From a virus: a DNA stretch of 27,522 nt. The notes under the pieces are model-generated. The model was not told the DNA's origin, did no database searches, and was given only the letters and a program-made list of their open reading frames with translations. Below are positions 3,085 through 24,750 of this stretch, piece by piece. The stretch's first letter is position 1. The number at the start of each line of letters is the position of its first letter. The stretch lies in IMG/VR virus record IMGVR_UViG_3300043395_000840, positions 1 through 27,522 of that record; one strand, given 5' to 3'. A program made the translations under genes and the position numbers.

Positions 3085-3407
3085 ACGTAAATACTATTAG
3101 TGTCTGTTTCTACGATTACAAAAATACCTGTTGCAATCTTTGTTAATCCTGTTTCATCTGTCGGGTTTGGTTGTGTTCCATCGAACTCAAATACTTCGTA
3201 TCTGTATTGCCCCGCTTTGATATTTGGAGTCCAAGCCATTTGAGTGAATCGTTCATTCTCACCTGATACCACAGGAACAAAATAAGTAACCGCCTCAGAC
3301 GAATAAGATGATGTCAACTTAAACAGATAGCCGTGATTCGCATAACTTGTCAATTCCAATAGTGGAAGAGCGAACGCGGATGCTATGTTTTTCTGCGTGT
3401 AAATCAT
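3081..3407 (-). CDS. Small hypothetical virion-associated protein
   Basis: This 108-residue protein is predicted to be largely beta-strand (for example FKLTSSYSSEAVTYFVPVV, about 29-47) with no signal peptide or membrane segment. I do not recognise the family. The pattern of alternating hydrophobic residues, with QYRYEVFEFDG near residue 70, resembles small beta-sandwich proteins found between tail tube and portal genes in Bacteroidota phages. Its ATG (3405-3407) is preceded within two bases by the recurrent ACATTATA-type element, and it starts just after a strong terminator, so it probably begins its own transcript together with portal, connector and fibre genes. Confidence 0.7.
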   Translation of the reverse strand: MIYTQKNIASAFALPLLELTSYANHGYLFKLTSSYSSEAVTYFVPVVSGENERFTQMAWTPNIKAGQYRYEVFEFDGTQPNPTDETGLTKIATGIFVIVETDTNSIYV

Positions 3408-3421
3408 AACATATAATGTAC
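3408..3421 (-). promoter_or_regulatory. Recurrent late-gene leader element (copy 1)
   Basis: Read on the minus strand, TACATTATATGTT lies directly before the ATG at 3405-3407. Near-identical elements precede the ATGs at 6361, 10653 and 14835, and a weaker one precedes 3981. The ACAT/ATGT halves form a short dyad with a 3-base centre. It is too close to the ATG to be an ordinary promoter, so a translational or operator role is inferred. Confidence 0.45.
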
Positions 3422-3427
3422 TGAAAA

Positions 3428-3453
3428 TGAAAAGGGGGACTAAATGTCCCCCA
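3428..3453 (-). terminator. Rho-independent terminator after the tail tube gene
   Basis: On the minus strand a perfect 7-bp stem GGGGGAC/GTCCCCC (3446-3452 with 3434-3440, loop of 5) is followed by TTTTCATTTTC. It lies 25 bases downstream of the tail tube stop codon, in the right orientation to end that transcript. Confidence 0.9.
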
Positions 3454-3477
3454 CTTCAAACGAATCTATGGAAAAGA

Positions 3478-3981
3478 TTACAAGGATTCATAAAGAACAG
3501 GGTCAACTTCGTACGCTTTAGTCAATGACTCAGAGCGGAAAGTAATCTCGTAATTTGAACCATCTGCTTTAGCAGTTCCAGAGCCTCCTGTGTCAGTTGC
3601 CAATTGTGAGTAAGGAAAATCCCAACATGAACCATCAGCACATTTAACCATCACAGATAAATCGCGTTGACCTTCAGCGGCAATTTGGATGCTCTTAGAT
3701 TTCGATGCCTCACGTTTAAACAGTTTAAGCATGACGTTACGCAACCAAAAGGTTGAACCGTTTTCCATGTTGATTTGAGCCTCTTCTGTGTAGTTACCTA
3801 CGTTACGTCTAAACTCAAATTTAACGTATGGTGTTGACACTACACGCGCAGTTACTTCATGCGTGGTAGTGTTGATTGTCTCGGATGTGATGTTGGACAT
3901 ATCATTGATTTTAACCTCAGTGATTCCCCCAACGTTGTTGTCGCATCCGTTCAAAATTTCGACTAATGTTGTACAAGCCAT
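3478..3981 (-). CDS. Probable major tail tube protein
   Basis: This 167-residue protein begins MACTTLVEILNGCDNNVGGI and is predominantly beta-strand, with a C-terminal segment NYEITFRSESLTKAYEVDP. The N-terminal 'CDNN.GGI' pattern and length match a group of Bacteroidota phage proteins that follow the capsid gene and are thought to be the major tail protein. Supporting context: it sits immediately downstream of the major capsid gene and is bracketed by two strong terminators (3995-4026 upstream, 3428-3453 downstream), making a separate transcript, as expected for an abundant virion subunit. No catalytic motif is seen. The alternative is a head decoration protein; I rate tail tube as more likely. 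Confidence 0.65.
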   Translation of the reverse strand: MACTTLVEILNGCDNNVGGITEVKINDMSNITSETINTTTHEVTARVVSTPYVKFEFRRNVGNYTEEAQINMENGSTFWLRNVMLKLFKREASKSKSIQIAAEGQRDLSVMVKCADGSCWDFPYSQLATDTGGSGTAKADGSNYEITFRSESLTKAYEVDPVLYESL

Positions 3982-3995
3982 AATATAAAGTATTA
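3982..3995 (-). promoter_or_regulatory. Recurrent late-gene leader element (weak copy)
   Basis: The minus strand reads ATACTTTATATT directly before the ATG of the tail tube gene (3979-3981). It resembles the ACATTATA-type elements before other late genes but departs from the consensus at several positions. It also lies next to the T-run of the upstream terminator. Confidence 0.3.
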
Positions 3996-4026
3996 AAAAA
4001 GGGAGGGAGAAATTAACCGCCCTCCC
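3995..4026 (-). terminator. Rho-independent terminator after the major capsid gene
   Basis: On the minus strand the stem GGGAGGG (revcomp of 4020-4026) pairs with CCCTCCC (revcomp of 4001-4007) across a 12-base loop and is followed by TTTTTTAA. It lies in the gap between the capsid gene stop (4050) and the tail tube ATG (3981) and would release most capsid transcripts before the tail tube gene. Confidence 0.92.
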
Positions 4027-4049
4027 CTCTTGGTAAATTAATCAGTTAA

Positions 4050-4982
4050 TTAAGGAGCATTCCAATAGAATACAATCTCACCTCCGTTTGTATGGAAGTA
4101 ACCTTCTTTTTGGTTTGCACGTGTACGGATGTACGGCTCTGCAACTGTATCAGAAAGGTTAACAGCTTTCAACTCTTCACCATCTTTCTTACCATCGAAC
4201 GCGTAGATCAAGTTGTCTTTCAACGTGAACACCATTGTATTAGATGGCAACGCTGCATCTTCGATAACTTTAATACCCAAGAACGTTAAACCAAGCTGAG
4301 CCGTTACATTGTTCACAGTGTTTTGTGAAGCAGTAGCGATTTTATAGTTACCTGCGATGTCAGATGAAACGAACCAACGTAAGTCTGAAACTTTAGCACG
4401 AACCTCTGCTGGCATTGCTTGATAAACCGAAGTCATTGCAGCGATTACGTTTGCAGTAGTAGAAGCAACCCCTCCGTTATCTACATCGATTACCGTTGCA
4501 TCCGCTTTCAATTTCTTCAAGTGACCATCAACCAAAGCCAGGTTAGGGTCTCCCGAAGCAGTGTCACCTTGCCAACGACGAAGTGCGCGCTCTTCACGTG
4601 CTTTGTTCGCCAACTCTTGCCAGTAGTAGTTCATGAACGATTGTACTGTAAAGTCACCGTTTGAACCTTTAGCCATTTGCAATGCTAAGAATGATTGCTC
4701 AACATCAAACTGACAGATTTGCGCCATGATTGAAGTTGGTGTTACATCGATGTCGATTGCATCCAATGCCTCAGTAGGTGCTGTAAAGTTACAAGTACTT
4801 GCCTTTGTTACTTGACCAAAAGTAACGTTTGCCAATTTAGTCGCTGCTTTGATTCCTGGCAACGTACGGAAATTATCAACGATTTGTTCGTCGATGTAAG
4901 AACGGGAGTAGAACTCCTGTGGATTAGGACAAAGTAATGCGTTTGTCTCAATCGTTAATGAGAATTTTAAATCTCTTTGCAT
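4050..4982 (-). CDS. Major capsid protein
   Basis: This 310-residue protein is the most likely major capsid subunit (HK97-fold). It follows the prohead protease/scaffold gene with only 2 bases between stop and start, the usual order for protease-scaffold then capsid. The sequence has a helical N-terminal segment, a central 'spine helix'-like region around FMNYYWQELANKAREERALRRW (residues about 117-139), and a C-terminal beta-rich part ending GEIVFYWNAP, typical of the A-domain of Bacteroidota phage capsids. No signal peptide is present. A strong terminator follows it, as expected for a very highly expressed gene. A decoration or scaffold protein would not show this length and fold pattern. 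Confidence 0.88.
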   Translation of the reverse strand: MQRDLKFSLTIETNALLCPNPQEFYSRSYIDEQIVDNFRTLPGIKAATKLANVTFGQVTKASTCNFTAPTEALDAIDIDVTPTSIMAQICQFDVEQSFLALQMAKGSNGDFTVQSFMNYYWQELANKAREERALRRWQGDTASGDPNLALVDGHLKKLKADATVIDVDNGGVASTTANVIAAMTSVYQAMPAEVRAKVSDLRWFVSSDIAGNYKIATASQNTVNNVTAQLGLTFLGIKVIEDAALPSNTMVFTLKDNLIYAFDGKKDGEELKAVNLSDTVAEPYIRTRANQKEGYFHTNGGEIVFYWNAP

Positions 4983-4984
4983 GA

Positions 4985-6361
4985 TTATTGTTTTTTAAAT
5001 GATGCTGAAAACTTTGCAAGTCTTTCATGCGCTGACAATTGAACAGGCGCTTGCTCTTCCTCTTCAACTGCTTCTTCTTGTTTTGCTTCTTCGATTGCGG
5101 CTTTTAGTTCTGCTAACATGTTCAAGACTTCACCCATTCGCTCTTCAATCATTGAGGCAACTTTCTCCTCTGTGATTGATTCTGCGGGTGCTTCCTCTGT
5201 CGGCATTTCTTCAGCCATTTCAGTAGTAGCTTCCTCTGTCGTTTCCTCCGTTGTAGTCTCTTCTGTTGTTTCTTCCGCTGCCATTTCTGTTTCGGTTTCT
5301 TCAACAGGAGTTTCTGTTTCAGGATTCTCAGACAAAGCAACCTCTACCTCGACAAGTTTCCCATCTTTAAACAGGTATTGCTTGCCTTCGCTTAGTTGCA
5401 CTTCCATTGTATTTGTATTTAATTGTTTGCTGAACTTTATAGATTCTTTAGCATTAATAGCTACCTCTTTGAATCTGCTATTTTGAGATAATATAACATC
5501 AATAGAATCCAACTCATCAACTTCAAAGAATCCAAAGTCTTGATGTTCTTTTGATATTGAAACATCACCATCATAAACACATTTAAAATAGTGTGTTATT
5601 GAACCATCTTGATTTTTAAATTTAGTAACAAAAGAAACTCCACTTTCAATTCCGCTTTCTTCTTTCATTTCTCTGATAGCAGCTAAATCTGGCGATTCTC
5701 CCTCCTCAATCTTACCACCTACAAACCCCCATTTATTAGCTTCAAAATTATCGTCAACATTTCTTTTTAATAGTAAAACCTTTCTATTACTATTAAATAC
5801 AATGACATCTGAATATGATTGCTGTTTGCTTAGTTTAAGACCGAACGAACCCCCGATTGAATAACCAACCTGACCATTTGCAACAATGTTATCGTAGAAT
5901 TTACGATCTGTGATTTGTGTGGTCAACATCAAAGTGCCTTTTGGCACGTCAATTCCGTATGTGGTTTTAGCCTTGTCAGTTTCTGGATTGTCAACTATCC
6001 AAGCCTCTAAAATGTAAGCGGGTACTTTCTGTGACTTGTCATGCTCAAAGTTAAAAAGGCTTTCACCCTTCGATACTAATTGCATTATCTCTGTGTGGAT
6101 TAGTTCAATCTGTTCGGCTGTAAATTCGACGTTAAACTCTTCGCCATCCTGATTTCGGTAGATTTCCATTGGAATCATTGCTGGCGCAACTATACGCATC
6201 TTCGGTTCGTCTTTAAAGACCAACTTCTTTTGTGCGTTGAATGCCATACCTTTCACGATGATAGCTGGGTCGGATGTAAACGCGATTTCATCGAGTCCAG
6301 TGAACTCTTCGCCAGTCTCTAAATCCTTTTTTAGTATCTTATAAGTTACCAAATCATCCAT
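4985..6361 (-). CDS. Prohead protease-scaffold polyprotein with inserted Nudix hydrolase domain
   Basis: This head maturation protease/scaffold has three parts (numbered from ATG 6361, 458 residues). Residues 1-180 look like an XkdF/S78-type serine protease: a His in FNFEHDK (His107) and Ser168 in GYSIGGSF are the likely catalytic pair, and AWIVDNPETDK is a family motif. Residues about 181-309 form a complete Nudix domain; the box G216x5Ex7REUxEExGU is perfect (G..E..REMKEESGI). Residues 320-458 are the acidic scaffold: an EETT-rich stretch, then a coiled coil EEKVASMIEERMGEVLNMLA and a basic tail. A TTG start at 6370 is also open, but ATG 6361 is preferred because the recurrent leader element ends just before it. 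Lengths without the Nudix part would match the family. Such a fusion is rare to my knowledge. Confidence 0.85.
   Translation of the reverse strand: MDDLVTYKILKKDLETGEEFTGLDEIAFTSDPAIIVKGMAFNAQKKLVFKDEPKMRIVAPAMIPMEIYRNQDGEEFNVEFTAEQIELIHTEIMQLVSKGESLFNFEHDKSQKVPAYILEAWIVDNPETDKAKTTYGIDVPKGTLMLTTQITDRKFYDNIVANGQVGYSIGGSFGLKLSKQQSYSDVIVFNSNRKVLLLKRNVDDNFEANKWGFVGGKIEEGESPDLAAIREMKEESGIESGVSFVTKFKNQDGSITHYFKCVYDGDVSISKEHQDFGFFEVDELDSIDVILSQNSRFKEVAINAKESIKFSKQLNTNTMEVQLSEGKQYLFKDGKLVEVEVALSENPETETPVEETETEMAAEETTEETTTEETTEEATTEMAEEMPTEEAPAESITEEKVASMIEERMGEVLNMLAELKAAIEEAKQEEAVEEEEQAPVQLSAHERLAKFSASFKKQ
5424..5830 (-). repeat. 8-bp direct repeats flanking the inserted Nudix segment
   Basis: AGCAAACA (minus strand) occurs at 5823-5830 and again at 5424-5431. 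The two copies are 399 bp apart, exactly 133 codons, and encode the same in-frame Ser-Lys-Gln at both junctions (KLSKQ and KFSKQ). The enclosed DNA codes for the Nudix domain. Two enclosed 60-base lines counted by hand are 30% and 22% G+C, against 40% in a line of the protease part. Confidence 0.55.
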
Positions 6362-6375
6362 AACGTACAATGTAA
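6362..6375 (-). promoter_or_regulatory. Recurrent late-gene leader element (copy before protease)
   Basis: The minus strand reads TTACATTGTACGTT directly before ATG 6359-6361. It matches the ACAT-NNN-A(C/T)GT dyad seen before the 108-aa, tape measure and 468-aa tail genes. Its placement supports ATG 6361 rather than TTG 6370 as the start of the protease gene. Confidence 0.45.
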
Positions 6376-18874: not shown

Positions 18875-19759
18875 TTAGCGTACATACCCAATCATCAACT
18901 CATCAAAGTAATTCCGCGCGAGTGTTACGTGTTCCTTTACCTTTTCGCGGTCAATTTCTGTAAGGTCAACTCTGAACGTCTTAACTCGCGCCCAATCTGG
19001 TATATGGTCAAAGTTGTGCATTTCGCGCACTTGTTCAATGAATGATTCGTCGGGTTGCCCTTCATTCGCGCCTTCTTTCCACAACGACCAAGCGTGTGAC
19101 ATGATTACGGATTCTGGGCTGTTCTCTAGCGAAAAACAAACGTACCAATGGTCAAACCCTGCCATCATTGCGTATCGCTTTGCCTGCCATTCGTAACGCT
19201 GAAACGATGTCTTTGCCGCCTCTTTCAAATCCTTTGCGAATAGTGGGAATGTGTCATCTGAAAAGCTGCATTTTGCATCGAATCCGAAACCTAGTTTTTC
19301 ATACATAGCGTCTGGATGACCGTAGCCGTATTCGTCTTTCAGCTCAATGCCTAACTTATTCGCGTTTAGCGGTGGTGGAAATCCGTTCACCTTTGCAATT
19401 CGTGCCAAAGCCATGTTTTCAAGTTGCTTACCTTTCTCTACGTACTTGTTTGATAGGTGCATCTTTGACGTATTACGCACCAATGAATTAAAGTAATCCT
19501 TTACAAGTGTTTTAGCCGTGTCGGATAGTTCGGGAAGTGCATCGCGTTTCTCAATTAATCTGTCACGTTCCTTTGCTTGGTTTTCGGTCAGCTTAATCTT
19601 ACTCATGTAGTCGCGCAAAGTTATCTCCTGCTTTTCTGTGAGGCTATTCTTTGTCAACGAACCCATCAAATCCCCGAAATTGTAGGTGCGAAACATTAAG
19701 TCCACACCTTTGATGTTAGTGTTGTGTGTCATCCTATCCAAATTTAAGTAGTTGCTCAT
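18875..19759 (-). CDS. YqaJ/RecE-type PD-(D/E)XK exonuclease
   Basis: This 294-residue protein carries a PD-(D/E)XK core: an early Glu (E107-E114 region), GHPDA (147-151) and GFDAKCS (160-165; Asp161, Lys163), then YEWQAKRYAMM (189-199), the Q..(K/R)Y motif of YqaJ-family viral recombinases. It would degrade one strand of dsDNA ends to expose ssDNA for its partner RecT, encoded directly upstream. Start at 19759 overlaps RecT by 26 bases; the alternative ATG at 19732 (MTHNTN) begins 1 base after the RecT stop, and is attractive for coupled translation. The helical N-terminal 80 residues are unfamiliar. Recombination-mediated replication or repair is the likely role. Confidence 0.88.
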   Translation of the reverse strand: MSNYLNLDRMTHNTNIKGVDLMFRTYNFGDLMGSLTKNSLTEKQEITLRDYMSKIKLTENQAKERDRLIEKRDALPELSDTAKTLVKDYFNSLVRNTSKMHLSNKYVEKGKQLENMALARIAKVNGFPPPLNANKLGIELKDEYGYGHPDAMYEKLGFGFDAKCSFSDDTFPLFAKDLKEAAKTSFQRYEWQAKRYAMMAGFDHWYVCFSLENSPESVIMSHAWSLWKEGANEGQPDESFIEQVREMHNFDHIPDWARVKTFRVDLTEIDREKVKEHVTLARNYFDELMIGYVR

Positions 19760-20555
19760 CCGTTACCGTGTACGTCGTTTGAATCTGTGCGAGCGTTGCG
19801 CCTTGTTCGATTAATGCAGCTACTTGTTCATCCGTAATTGTTGGCAACTGTTCTGCGTTCGGCTCACTTGCATCAATGTACTCAACATCTAGTGTTTCAG
19901 CATCTTTGATAATCGCTTGGTCTGCAATAGTCGCAGTCTGCATCTCGATTGACAAGATACCCCACTTTGACAACGTGTTCTTTAGTACGGTCTTTTTTGC
20001 CATTGCATCGAAGTCTGATTTCCAAACACCACCACCGTAAGTTTTGCTGAATCTCTTTGCGTGTTTCTCAACGTCTGCAACTGACCAATAGGAAGTCTTT
20101 TCAAAGCCGTTCAATAGTTTGAAGTAAGCAACGTAGCCAACGATTTTACCACTTGGTTCTTGCGTGAAGTCCGCATCCAATTCCTCGGTCAATCGGTTGA
20201 ATGACTTAAATTGATTTTCGTAAACCTCCACAACGTTAATAGCTTTGTATTGTCCTGTACGATTCGCAAGTTGTACCAAGCCCTTCCATCCAATCTGAAA
20301 CTGCGCCTGTCCTCCGTAAGGAACTATCCACGCAAAACCTAGTGAATTGTTAATAGGAAGGTCTAACGTTGCAGCAACCGCTGCGCAATTATACACGCTT
20401 TCGGGAGTTGCTTTCTGTAATAAGTTGTTGTTATTCACAACTTGCAAAACGGACGTAACAAACCCGTTTGCTTTCTTCCCAAGCAGTTCTTCGAACTTGC
20501 TTTTTACCGCATCCTTCGCAAAGAATTGCTTTACTGTAATTTGATTTTGACTCAT
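19734..20555 (-). CDS. recT: RecT-family ssDNA-annealing recombinase
   Basis: This 273-residue protein belongs to the RecT family (lambda Bet-like, ssDNA annealing). The N-terminal part ANGFVTSVLQVVNNNNLLQKATPESV (29-54) and the central block AATLDLPINNSLGFAWIVPYGGQAQFQIGWKGLVQLANRTGQY are the classic RecT motif with NSLGFA..VPYG..AQFQIGWKG. The C-terminal 50 residues are acidic and less conserved. It is transcribed before the YqaJ-type nuclease and overlaps it by 26 bases, the usual pairing. It follows the pentapeptide protein by two bases. Function: annealing of complementary strands during phage recombination. Confidence 0.93.
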   Translation of the reverse strand: MSQNQITVKQFFAKDAVKSKFEELLGKKANGFVTSVLQVVNNNNLLQKATPESVYNCAAVAATLDLPINNSLGFAWIVPYGGQAQFQIGWKGLVQLANRTGQYKAINVVEVYENQFKSFNRLTEELDADFTQEPSGKIVGYVAYFKLLNGFEKTSYWSVADVEKHAKRFSKTYGGGVWKSDFDAMAKKTVLKNTLSKWGILSIEMQTATIADQAIIKDAETLDVEYIDASEPNAEQLPTITDEQVAALIEQGATLAQIQTTYTVTDEQLLKFG

Positions 20556-20557
20556 AG

Positions 20558-21337
20558 TTATTTGTTTAAAGTTTGTAAATACGCTTTGTAAGCGTTGTAA
20601 ACCGCTTCAATCTGTTTGAACTTTGGTGTGTTTCGAGGTGTTGAAATAACATCATCCGAAGCAAAGAAAATATCCCAATCTTCTATTGTGCGTTTTTCAC
20701 AACCAATGTGGATTAAATTTCCGCTTGTAATGCCGTGCATCCATTTGCAGTAGATAGGCATTTTAATAACGTCACTCAAATTCGCGTCACTCAAATTCGC
20801 GCCACTCAAATTCGCGTCACTCAAATTCGCGCCACTCAAATTCGCGTTTCTCAAATCCGCGCCTCTCAAATACGCGTTTCTCAAATACGCGTTTCTCAAA
20901 TTCGCGTCACTCAAATACGCGTTTCTCAAATTCGCGTTTCTCAAATCCGCGTCACTCAAATACGCGCCTCTCAAATCCGCGTATCTCAAATCCGCGTCAC
21001 TCAAATACGCGTTTCTCAAATTCGCGTCACTCAAATTCGCGTCACTCAAATACGCGCCTCTCAAATCCGCGTATCTCAAATCCGCGTCACTCAAATTCGC
21101 GTATCTCAAATCCGCACCACTCAAATCCGCACCACTCAAATCCGCGCCTCTCAAATACGCGTATCTCAAATCCGCACCACTCAAATCCGCACCACTCAAA
21201 TACGCGCCACTCAAATCCGCGTATCTCAAATCCGCGTTTTCTTTTAACGCTTGTAAAACCGCATCTTTTACTGTTGCGTTTTCTTTTCCGTAGGTGAATA
21301 ACACCGTACCAAATCTTGACTTAATTTCAATTTTCAT
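20558..21337 (-). CDS. Pentapeptide repeat protein
   Basis: This 259-residue protein is built from about 31 tandem A(D/N/Y)L(R/S)x pentapeptides (residues about 33-190), which fold into a right-handed quadrilateral beta-helix, preceded by a 30-residue cap MKIEIKSRFGTVLFTYG and followed by a globular C-terminal part with WMHGI, HIGC and IEDWDIFF (about 198-225). That C-terminal module is also seen in other pentapeptide proteins from Bacteroidota phages. Pentapeptide proteins can mimic DNA and some protect gyrase, but this is not shown here. It is the first gene after the 21364-21413 promoter region, so it is probably transcribed with recT. Confidence 0.93.
   Translation of the reverse strand: MKIEIKSRFGTVLFTYGKENATVKDAVLQALKENADLRYADLSGAYLSGADLSGADLRYAYLRGADLSGADLSGADLRYANLSDADLRYADLRGAYLSDANLSDANLRNAYLSDADLRYADLRGAYLSDADLRNANLRNAYLSDANLRNAYLRNAYLRGADLRNANLSGANLSDANLSGANLSDANLSDVIKMPIYCKWMHGITSGNLIHIGCEKRTIEDWDIFFASDDVISTPRNTPKFKQIEAVYNAYKAYLQTLNK
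20771..21239 (-). repeat. 15-bp tandem repeat array encoding pentapeptides
   Basis: About 31 near-identical 15-bp units of the type TCAAATnCGCGnnnC run without interruption. They encode the pentapeptide repeats of the gene at 20558-21337. Very low divergence between units suggests recent expansion or homogenisation. Confidence 0.95.
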
Positions 21338-22877: not shown

Positions 22878-23537
22878 CTAATCTATTGAATCGGTATACT
22901 CCTCCTGTTCTGGCTCCCATCCTTCGGAAAATTCTTTGTTTTGGAACAGTTCAATCAATCCTGAAATTTGACTTAATCTCAAAACTTCATCCCTATCCAT
23001 TCCAAGTTCTTTTGCAATCTTTGCATCGCTCCAATTTCTACGCTTTAAATCAACGACAATATCTGACATTGATTCAACCTTATGTTTACCTCTTGCTCGG
23101 TTGTGTCTTATTGTCGATGCGATTCGATCATTTTTACCAGTTTGACTTTCGCGAATTGTAACAACAGGCAAATAACCTTTAACGCGCTCCTGAATATCAG
23201 AACACTCCTTTCCAACTCTATTACGGTGGAATCCATCAATTACTTCGCGCGTTCCATCGTTGTTATCCATTGAAACAATCGGTTGCGTATAACCATCGTT
23301 TGAAATTGAAAGTCGCAATAATTCCATTTCAGGAGGAGCAACGCTGTTTGGGTTGTAATCGTTTGCATGAACAGTACTATTTTTAACCCATATTACACAA
23401 TCAACAGGCTCGCTATTAAACGGTGATATTTCGTGCATAGCCATTTTGAATTGATTTAGAATATCAACTTTTGAATCTAGGTCAAGTTGTTTAACATCCT
23501 GTAAAAGTTCATTGAATTTAGTTTTTAGTGCTTCCAT
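22878..23537 (-). CDS. ParB-like protein of the IbrB type
   Basis: This 219-residue protein has a ParB/Srx-type domain: residues 50-130 contain NPNSVAPPEMELLRLSI, then REVIDGFHRNRVGKE (97-111), where GFHRNR corresponds to the ParB 'G-x-R-R' box II loop, and TIRHNRARGKH (142-152). A helix-turn-helix (about 168-188, DAKIAKELGMDRDEVLRL) follows. In this family the domain binds and hydrolyses a nucleotide or senses DNA. It directly follows a PAPS-reductase-like gene, overlapping it by 20 bases. The IbrA/IbrB pair in E. coli prophages has the same two-gene order. It lies upstream of the replication initiator by 2 bases. Confidence 0.82.
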   Translation of the reverse strand: MEALKTKFNELLQDVKQLDLDSKVDILNQFKMAMHEISPFNSEPVDCVIWVKNSTVHANDYNPNSVAPPEMELLRLSISNDGYTQPIVSMDNNDGTREVIDGFHRNRVGKECSDIQERVKGYLPVVTIRESQTGKNDRIASTIRHNRARGKHKVESMSDIVVDLKRRNWSDAKIAKELGMDRDEVLRLSQISGLIELFQNKEFSEGWEPEQEEYTDSID

Positions 23538-24750
23538 CTTTTATTAGTTTTGATTGTTCTCTTTGTCTTTTTTTTAGGTCTAAATACTTTTGATACGCTT
23601 CTGTTTTATGCTGAGTGAATCCTAGTCCTTTACACCAGAAATCGTTTCTTAAAAGTGATTTACAAACACGCCTCCAAGAAGGAGCAAGTTTCTTTGATTC
23701 AAGAATATATGGCGCTTCGTCTGGTATTCCGTTATCATATCCCCTTTCTTGCCACCACTTTTCAAAAGTAAATATCTTATTCAAATAATGTTCCTTTGTT
23801 TTTTCTGGAATTGAGTTTAGAAATAGTTCCGCAAATGATTTCCATGTGTGGTTTTTAGGCTTTGATATATTGTTATAACCTGTTATCGAACCACTTTCAT
23901 TAATGTATAACGCACCTGAATTAGCACCATTTACACGCGTCACAACTTTTGCCCACGTTTCAGGTTCAATCAAATGAAATAACCATAAACCTCGCCTTTG
24001 ATCGTCACCGTATGGCTGGCAAATTCGTTGTTGATGAATAGACAAACCAGCCTTAAACATTAACTCGTAAAGTTCATTATATCTTTTGTCTTGGTTTTTA
24101 GCGTGGTAAATCCAAATATCTTCCGTTCTCCAATCGTAAATAGGGTAAACGTTAAATACATTATCAGTTACTTTTGTAGTGTAAACCTTGTCCTGAAATT
24201 TCACCTTTGTTTTAGAGCTAATTGTTCTGTATCGGTTTAGTGATTCGTCAGAACGGATTCCAACCAAACAGGCTGTTGTTTTGCCCTGCGAATACCATTC
24301 ACCAAATTCAGGCACAAATTCTTCAAACTCCATTCCATCACGAAAAAATGGGAAGTAATTTAAATCGCTTATTGATTGCTGTGGCAATTCTCTAATCCAT
24401 TCAGACTGTTGTTCAGTGTCCCAACATTTCCAAAATGGTTCATAAACTGAAACGGCATTTCTTAAATGTATAGGTAAACAAACCCAATACAAATCAATCC
24501 ATTGATTATACTCACTTGTCATTGCATAAATATGGTCAATGGTAAGTTTGTATTGCCCTTCAAGATCAACGATTAGAACACCAATTTTCACGTTCCTTTT
24601 CTTTGCTTCATCCATTACTAGGTGCAGCATTACAGTTGAATCTTTACCAGCTGAAAAAGAAAGGTAGATTCTTTCAAAGTTATCAAACGTAAACTCAATA
24701 CGCTCGATAGCACATTCAAGAACATTTTTATTTAATCCAAATTTAGGCAT
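23518..24750 (-). CDS. PAPS-reductase-like ATP pyrophosphatase of the IbrA type
   Basis: This 410-residue protein has a PP-loop at SFSAGKDST (31-39; SxGKDS signature), then LVGIRSDESLNR (about 163-174) and RICQPYGDDQR further on, all typical of the IbrA/DUF3440 branch of adenylyl-transfer pyrophosphatases related to PAPS reductase, DndC and SspD. The enzyme would activate a substrate with ATP, releasing pyrophosphate. It overlaps the companion gene at its 5' end by 19 bases and the ParB-like gene at its 3' end by 20 bases, so the three are one translational unit. Its phage role is unknown; a DNA-modification or anti-defence role is conceivable because DndC-like enzymes put sulphur into DNA, but that is inference. 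Confidence 0.85.
   Translation of the reverse strand: MPKFGLNKNVLECAIERIEFTFDNFERIYLSFSAGKDSTVMLHLVMDEAKKRNVKIGVLIVDLEGQYKLTIDHIYAMTSEYNQWIDLYWVCLPIHLRNAVSVYEPFWKCWDTEQQSEWIRELPQQSISDLNYFPFFRDGMEFEEFVPEFGEWYSQGKTTACLVGIRSDESLNRYRTISSKTKVKFQDKVYTTKVTDNVFNVYPIYDWRTEDIWIYHAKNQDKRYNELYELMFKAGLSIHQQRICQPYGDDQRRGLWLFHLIEPETWAKVVTRVNGANSGALYINESGSITGYNNISKPKNHTWKSFAELFLNSIPEKTKEHYLNKIFTFEKWWQERGYDNGIPDEAPYILESKKLAPSWRRVCKSLLRNDFWCKGLGFTQHKTEAYQKYLDLKKRQREQSKLIKDGSTKN

Follow-up and report, generated by a model that had tools for sequence, protein, structure and literature searches.

Evidence for recent in-frame gain of a MutT-like Nudix domain at the predicted protease/scaffold junction of a phage head gene

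Nudix domains and phage head proteins

Fusions of Nudix domains to phage head proteins have been reported previously. Iyer et al. 2022 describe MuF, portal and capsid-processing serine peptidase proteins to which T4 NudE-like Nudix domains are fused, and their passages on these fusions propose packaging and injection (PMC9503650). The gene described here, carried by a viral fragment in IMG/VR (27,522 nt, record IMGVR_UViG_3300043395_000840; the whole stretch analysed is called the window), resembles them in that a Nudix domain is joined to a head protein. Nevertheless, the published fusions are assigned to the NudE clade and ADPr/NAD chemistry, whereas the window domain looks MutT-like, and the same passages describe no empty site or insertion event for them (PMC9503650).

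Further associations were found in records of cultured phages. Pantoea phage PdC23 (gp04) and Yersinia phage vB_YenM_29.18 carry an N-terminal Nudix domain on a DUF2213 head maturation protease (PHROG 6216; also PHROG 3778). As in the window, Nudix and head protease share one polypeptide encoded in the head gene cluster, but there the Nudix domain is N-terminal and the protease is DUF2213 rather than PF14550; their fusion is an established PHROG family, whereas that of the window appears to be a single new insertion. The vB_YenM_29.18 protein (L263 2983-4614) is annotated as a glycosyl transferase in its record. In Bcep781-like phages the Nudix domain is likewise attached to a head protein, at the C-terminus of the portal (Bcep1 gp18; PHROG 15528), but the head protease of Bcep1 is a separate gene with no Nudix match. 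Chryseobacterium phage MA9V-3 has a separate Nudix gene (L259 2498-3205) directly upstream of the head maturation protease gene (3212-4810; phrog_1028), both annotated as hypothetical. Because protease families and Nudix positions differ, Nudix domains have probably joined head proteins repeatedly, and this convergence is the main argument for a functional location in the head. As a type, such a fusion is not new to the literature; the window differs in protease family, in the position of the domain and in having a near-contemporary empty site.

The insert, its ends and the empty sites

The window gene (Table 1) carries a PF14550 domain (E 1.3e-6, 28.9 bits against a gathering cut-off of 24 in the Pfam search) that is also matched in an insert-free homologue (L006, 27.8 bits), and the homologue alignment of this XkdF-type protease contains invariant His and Ser positions. 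The C-terminal region is Glu-rich, and the position and composition of this acidic tail suggest a scaffold role. The adjoining virion structural gene, judged by its phrog_1623 match and position, probably encodes the major capsid protein, and a protease/scaffold gene is usually found just before the capsid gene. As the closest cultured match of the putative capsid protein is from Nonlabens phage P12024, at 27% identity, a Bacteroidota host can be offered as a guess only. The full-length AF2 model of the window protein had a pLDDT of 37. The protease part is also matched by PHROG 1530 (positions 236-348 of 379), a family named DNA methyltransferase that may contain a protease joined to some further domain, or may be misnamed.

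Table 1. Positions of the features of the protease-Nudix-scaffold gene and of the gene that follows it in the window
Feature	Position	Strand	Details and basis
Protease-Nudix-scaffold gene	4985..6361	(-)	458 aa from ATG; ORF and Pfam
Alternative TTG start of this gene	6370	(-)	ORF 4985-6370, 461 aa
XkdF-type protease domain PF14550	5849..6226	(-)	Residues 49-174; Pfam
Upstream 8-bp direct repeat AGCAAACA	5823..5830	(-)	Window compared with empty sites
Unique inserted DNA encoding Nudix	5432..5822	(-)	391 bp, 30.2% GC; comparison with empty sites
Pfam NUDIX PF00293	5510..5809	(-)	Residues 188-287
Nudix box GKIEEGESPDLAAIREMKEESGI	5648..5716	(-)	Residues 219-241; sequence
Downstream copy of AGCAAACA	5424..5431	(-)	Also opens the conserved block as its first 8 nt
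Probable signal for internal translation start, conserved block AGCAAACAATTAAATACAAATACAATG	5405..5431	(-)	Synonymous constraint; Met 105/105
Probable nested scaffold gene	4985..5407	(-)	140 aa, acidic, C-terminal helix; internal ATG and composition
Next gene, virion structural protein	4050..4982	(-)	phrog_1623, E 5.7e-18

A preliminary description of the stretch had placed a complete Nudix domain between protease and scaffold parts, and the PF14550 and PF00293 positions bear this out. The AGCAAACA repeats that it reported were recovered at the same places, 399 bp apart and both in frame, bracketing the unique DNA; among 27,112 window positions they are the sole pair of identical 8-mers at that distance. 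The inserted codons correspond to residues 181-313 from the TTG (178-310 from the ATG), a minor correction to the earlier extent of about 181-309. The AT-richness noted earlier was also found: the GC content of the insert, against 40.5% for the whole window, is the lowest of the 391-bp windows taken at 20-base steps. The GC3 of the insert is 0.18, compared with 0.28-0.50 in the tabulated window genes.

No inverted repeats were seen when the insert ends were compared by eye, and the insert holds no mobility gene, the Nudix frame alone being open throughout. The lack of terminal inverted repeats and of any other open frame argues against a mobile element, and a hidden homing endonuclease was ruled out since the other frames are closed. 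The homing insertion of phage ShiLan is similarly an in-frame extra segment within a phage gene, but there an HNH endonuclease is hidden in another frame (PMC11855218).

Comparison with homologues, which the preliminary description had suggested, identified nine close relatives (74-99% protein identity), all lacking exactly the Nudix DNA. Each empty site holds a single repeat copy, AGCAAACA in eight relatives and AGTAAACA in L010, and the net length difference between the window and the empty sites is exactly 399 bp. The closest relative (L002/L177) is insert-free at 99% protein identity. For about 6.8 kb contig L177 and the window align colinearly, with an identity of 95.8% over 5,434 columns and then 91.7% over 1,371, and there is no large indel other than the insert. 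Whereas enzyme-head protein fusions are usually seen only long after their formation, the insert-free sister allows the join, the frame and the exact ends to be read here, and the effect of gaining the domain could be read from a comparison of a pair of almost identical genes.

The insert is known from one record in the collections searched, and a strict degenerate 27-nt pattern identified no second contig with the Nudix/scaffold junction. A single record would be expected of a contig chimera created by metagenome assembly or amplification, but such an artefact would have had to make two joins, in frame, around a whole domain and with an exact 8-bp duplication, in a window otherwise colinear with L177. 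We consider a chimera highly improbable.

Wider searches of viral contigs gave 568 and 558 candidates, of which the best 80 of each by similarity were kept; the sequences read comprised 168 loci (104 distinct) down to about 45% identity. The reading frames of the 104 distinct homologues are 299-370 aa long, and none in this sample contains a Nudix box. From conserved Leu180 to conserved Met322 the intervening stretch is 8, 10 or 12 residues in these homologues and 141 in the window. PF00293 was also absent from 46 related contigs scanned whole. In a maximum-likelihood tree calculated with the insert left out, the window has L002 as its sister (100/98 support) and is nested among insert-free sequences.

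Deletion between short direct repeats would yield exactly the observed empty site, and an ancestral Nudix domain that the relatives lost when the 8-bp repeats recombined was weighed for that reason. Nevertheless, the domain is missing from all 104 distinct homologues, the window lies inside the insert-free sequences and the GC3 of the insert is foreign. Ancient presence followed by losses is rejected on the 104 empty homologues and the insert-free sister, and hardly any weight is left to it. As judged from tree and empty sites, a single recent gain would be far simpler than many losses. The recent in-frame acquisition proposed in the preliminary description is thus strongly supported by the empty homologues, the insert-free sister, the 8-bp duplication and the foreign composition. 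As a separate matter, phrog_24921 was rejected as an older protease-Nudix family, because the protease part by itself matches it, and so does an insert-free homologue.

The 8-bp sequence, single in empty sites and double in the window, would be expected if a staggered break had been filled in around foreign DNA. Joining at short homology could leave the same mark as a target-site duplication, and template switching or annealing where short homologies meet is a plausible alternative. Annealing is plausible because the phage has an exonuclease (phrog_5715) and a RecT annealase (PF03837), encoded as a pair at 18875-20555 (-). No donor of the Nudix DNA was found in viral contigs, phage DNA, phage proteins or one genome each of 84,980 species, and the best matches of useful length have about 29-39% amino acid identity. 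The best match among phage records, at 36.8% identity, is the Nudix domain of Flavobacterium phage MaF61. It is internal (residues 332-439) to a 924-aa protein (L258 1535-4309), the rest of which has no clear family.

Nature of the Nudix domain

PF00293 matches the window gene with E 2.5e-18 and 66.8 bits, against a cut-off of 21.1. The Nudix box GKIEEGESPDLAAIREMKEESGI fits GX5EX7REUXEEXGU exactly, as stated in the preliminary description, with all box residues present, and these residues are invariant across 33 relatives. Structure prediction, also proposed there, gave a confident Nudix fold (AF2 with 33 sequences, pLDDT 91.1, pTM 0.85). Compared by Foldseek with solved Nudix enzymes, the domain model had a best E of 1.6e-11 and a TM of about 0.8; its neighbours were MutT, ApnA hydrolases, NTP pyrophosphatases and RNA pyrophosphohydrolases. 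In the model the first strand begins just past the upstream repeat and the last helix stops a few residues short of the downstream repeat. As the edges of the fold match the repeat positions, the insert is one whole domain.

Comparisons by phmmer and with NCBIfam also indicate MutT-like enzymes. Every NCBIfam score of the domain was below cut-off, including those for MutT 8-oxo-dGTP diphosphatase (NF008044, 47.5 against 148 bits; TIGR00586, 44.1 against 97.9 bits), and from its sequence the domain appears MutT-like yet not assignable as MutT. ADP-ribose pyrophosphatases carry a signature proline about 15-17 residues after the Nudix box. The segment following the box, ESGVSFVTKFKNQDGSI, has no proline 15-17 residues on and lacks this signature. 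As predicted substrate class, ADP-ribose is less likely than MutT-like chemistry on (d)NTPs or RNA 5' ends. The role against ADP-ribose-type host defence that the preliminary description had raised finds no support in the sequence, the domain being closest to MutT-like enzymes and without the signature proline.

A probable internal scaffold start and the role of the domain

The insertion lies 19 nt upstream of an in-frame internal ATG (5405-5407), which is within 27 nt of the insert. The encoded residue, Met322, is Met in 105/105 sequences (the 104 homologues and the window). Other Met residues (58, 65, 96 and 148) are invariant too, so that this alone proves little. In the nine codons before Met322 the same-codon fraction was 0.89 in the near set, compared with a mean of 0.65 and a maximum of 0.86 for the other windows (n=272); in a second set, made up of 28 distant sequences, it was 0.81, compared with a mean of 0.59 and a maximum of 0.77 (n=266). 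None of the other nine-codon windows of the gene interior was as constrained (0/272 and 0/266), and the codons preceding the other four invariant Met residues, with fractions of 0.48-0.61, showed no such constraint. The remaining peaks of the full synonymous-constraint profile fall at the two gene ends, the sites of the start signals of the window gene and of the next gene.

This pattern of conservation makes AGCAAACAATTAAATACAAATACAATG very probably the internal start signal of a separately made 140-aa scaffold. The lambda C and Nu3 protease/scaffold genes are reportedly nested (Shaw and Murialdo 1980, cited in PMC8508860). The arrangement is alike in that a scaffold is made from an internal in-frame start of the protease gene, the start in the window being deduced from conservation alone; it differs in that lambda C is an S49-family peptidase and the window protease is XkdF-type (PF14550).

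What is new here is the insertion just upstream of this very probable start. The insertion leaves AGCAAACAATTAAATACAAATACAATG intact because the downstream AGCAAACA copy is its first 8 nt. As the insertion is upstream of the internal start, a scaffold made from that start would be unchanged and the Nudix domain would be confined to the long protease form. The internal start, if true, would explain why the site accepted a domain, and it makes a clear prediction as to which protein form carries it.

The same features are consistent with an insertion that is neutral or short-lived, tolerated because it sits in a linker that precedes the nested scaffold start, and without a selected function. The occurrence in a single record, the recent date implied by an insert-free sister at 99% protein identity and a site that keeps the scaffold start intact all agree with this. 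Nevertheless, a fragment taken at random would seldom amount to a single complete in-frame domain with a perfect catalytic box, and a neutral insertion is regarded as unlikely.

The explanation put forward here, with middling confidence, is that a MutT-like Nudix domain was inserted once and recently and serves as a head-internal, possibly injected nucleotide pyrophosphatase. A complete domain with an intact box entered the junction between XkdF-type protease and scaffold in one recent event, leaving the 8-bp direct duplication and keeping the reading frame. With the scaffold probably also made alone from the internal start just downstream, as its conservation strongly indicates, the phage would produce unchanged scaffold together with a protease-Nudix-scaffold polypeptide. 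The scaffold part would bring the Nudix domain into the prohead, and cleavage by the protease there could release it; once freed, it would act inside the head and might be injected. These last steps draw on protease-scaffold biology and on the independent Nudix-head protein fusions. By analogy with these, a head-associated nucleotide pyrophosphatase, possibly packaged, is the best functional guess. That the domain might be released into the capsid, packaged there or delivered from it, as raised in the preliminary description, is plausible and matches the proposal made for such fusions in the passages of Iyer et al. cited above (PMC9503650).

The domain might instead work inside the host cell at a late stage, either within the long protein ahead of assembly or once autoproteolysis has occurred, and clean or reshape the nucleotide pool or RNA 5' ends, its place in a head gene providing only late expression. 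Its MutT-like affinity is consistent with this, as is the finding of free-standing MutT-like Nudix genes in phages. However, timing alone explains less well why Nudix domains are repeatedly joined to, or found beside, head genes in unrelated phages, and such a role is taken as possible but on the doubtful side. A structural or regulatory part in head assembly, for example nucleotide or metal sensing to time the protease, would suit a domain that directly follows the protease. It is very unlikely, with the catalytic box fully intact and 104 distinct relatives assembling heads without Nudix.

A broader form of the proposed capture can be raised speculatively, and we think it rather improbable as a general route: phages might acquire enzymes for delivery with the head through the insertion of entire domains at the protease/scaffold junction, which would be tolerant as the nested start lies just downstream and the long protease form alone is altered, with exonuclease and RecT joining short homologies and the window showing a recent capture.

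Other genes of the window were also noted. Beside RecT, at 20558-21337 (-), is a gene for a 259-aa pentapeptide-repeat protein (PF00805, E 2.5e-87), seemingly itself a window-specific insertion, since the flanking alignments abut there in L173 and L175. A ParB-like protein (phrog_2159, E 6e-72) is encoded at 22878-23537 (-), and the PAPS reductase/DUF3440 gene at 23518-24750 (-) is the most AT-rich of the tabulated genes, with a GC of 0.35.
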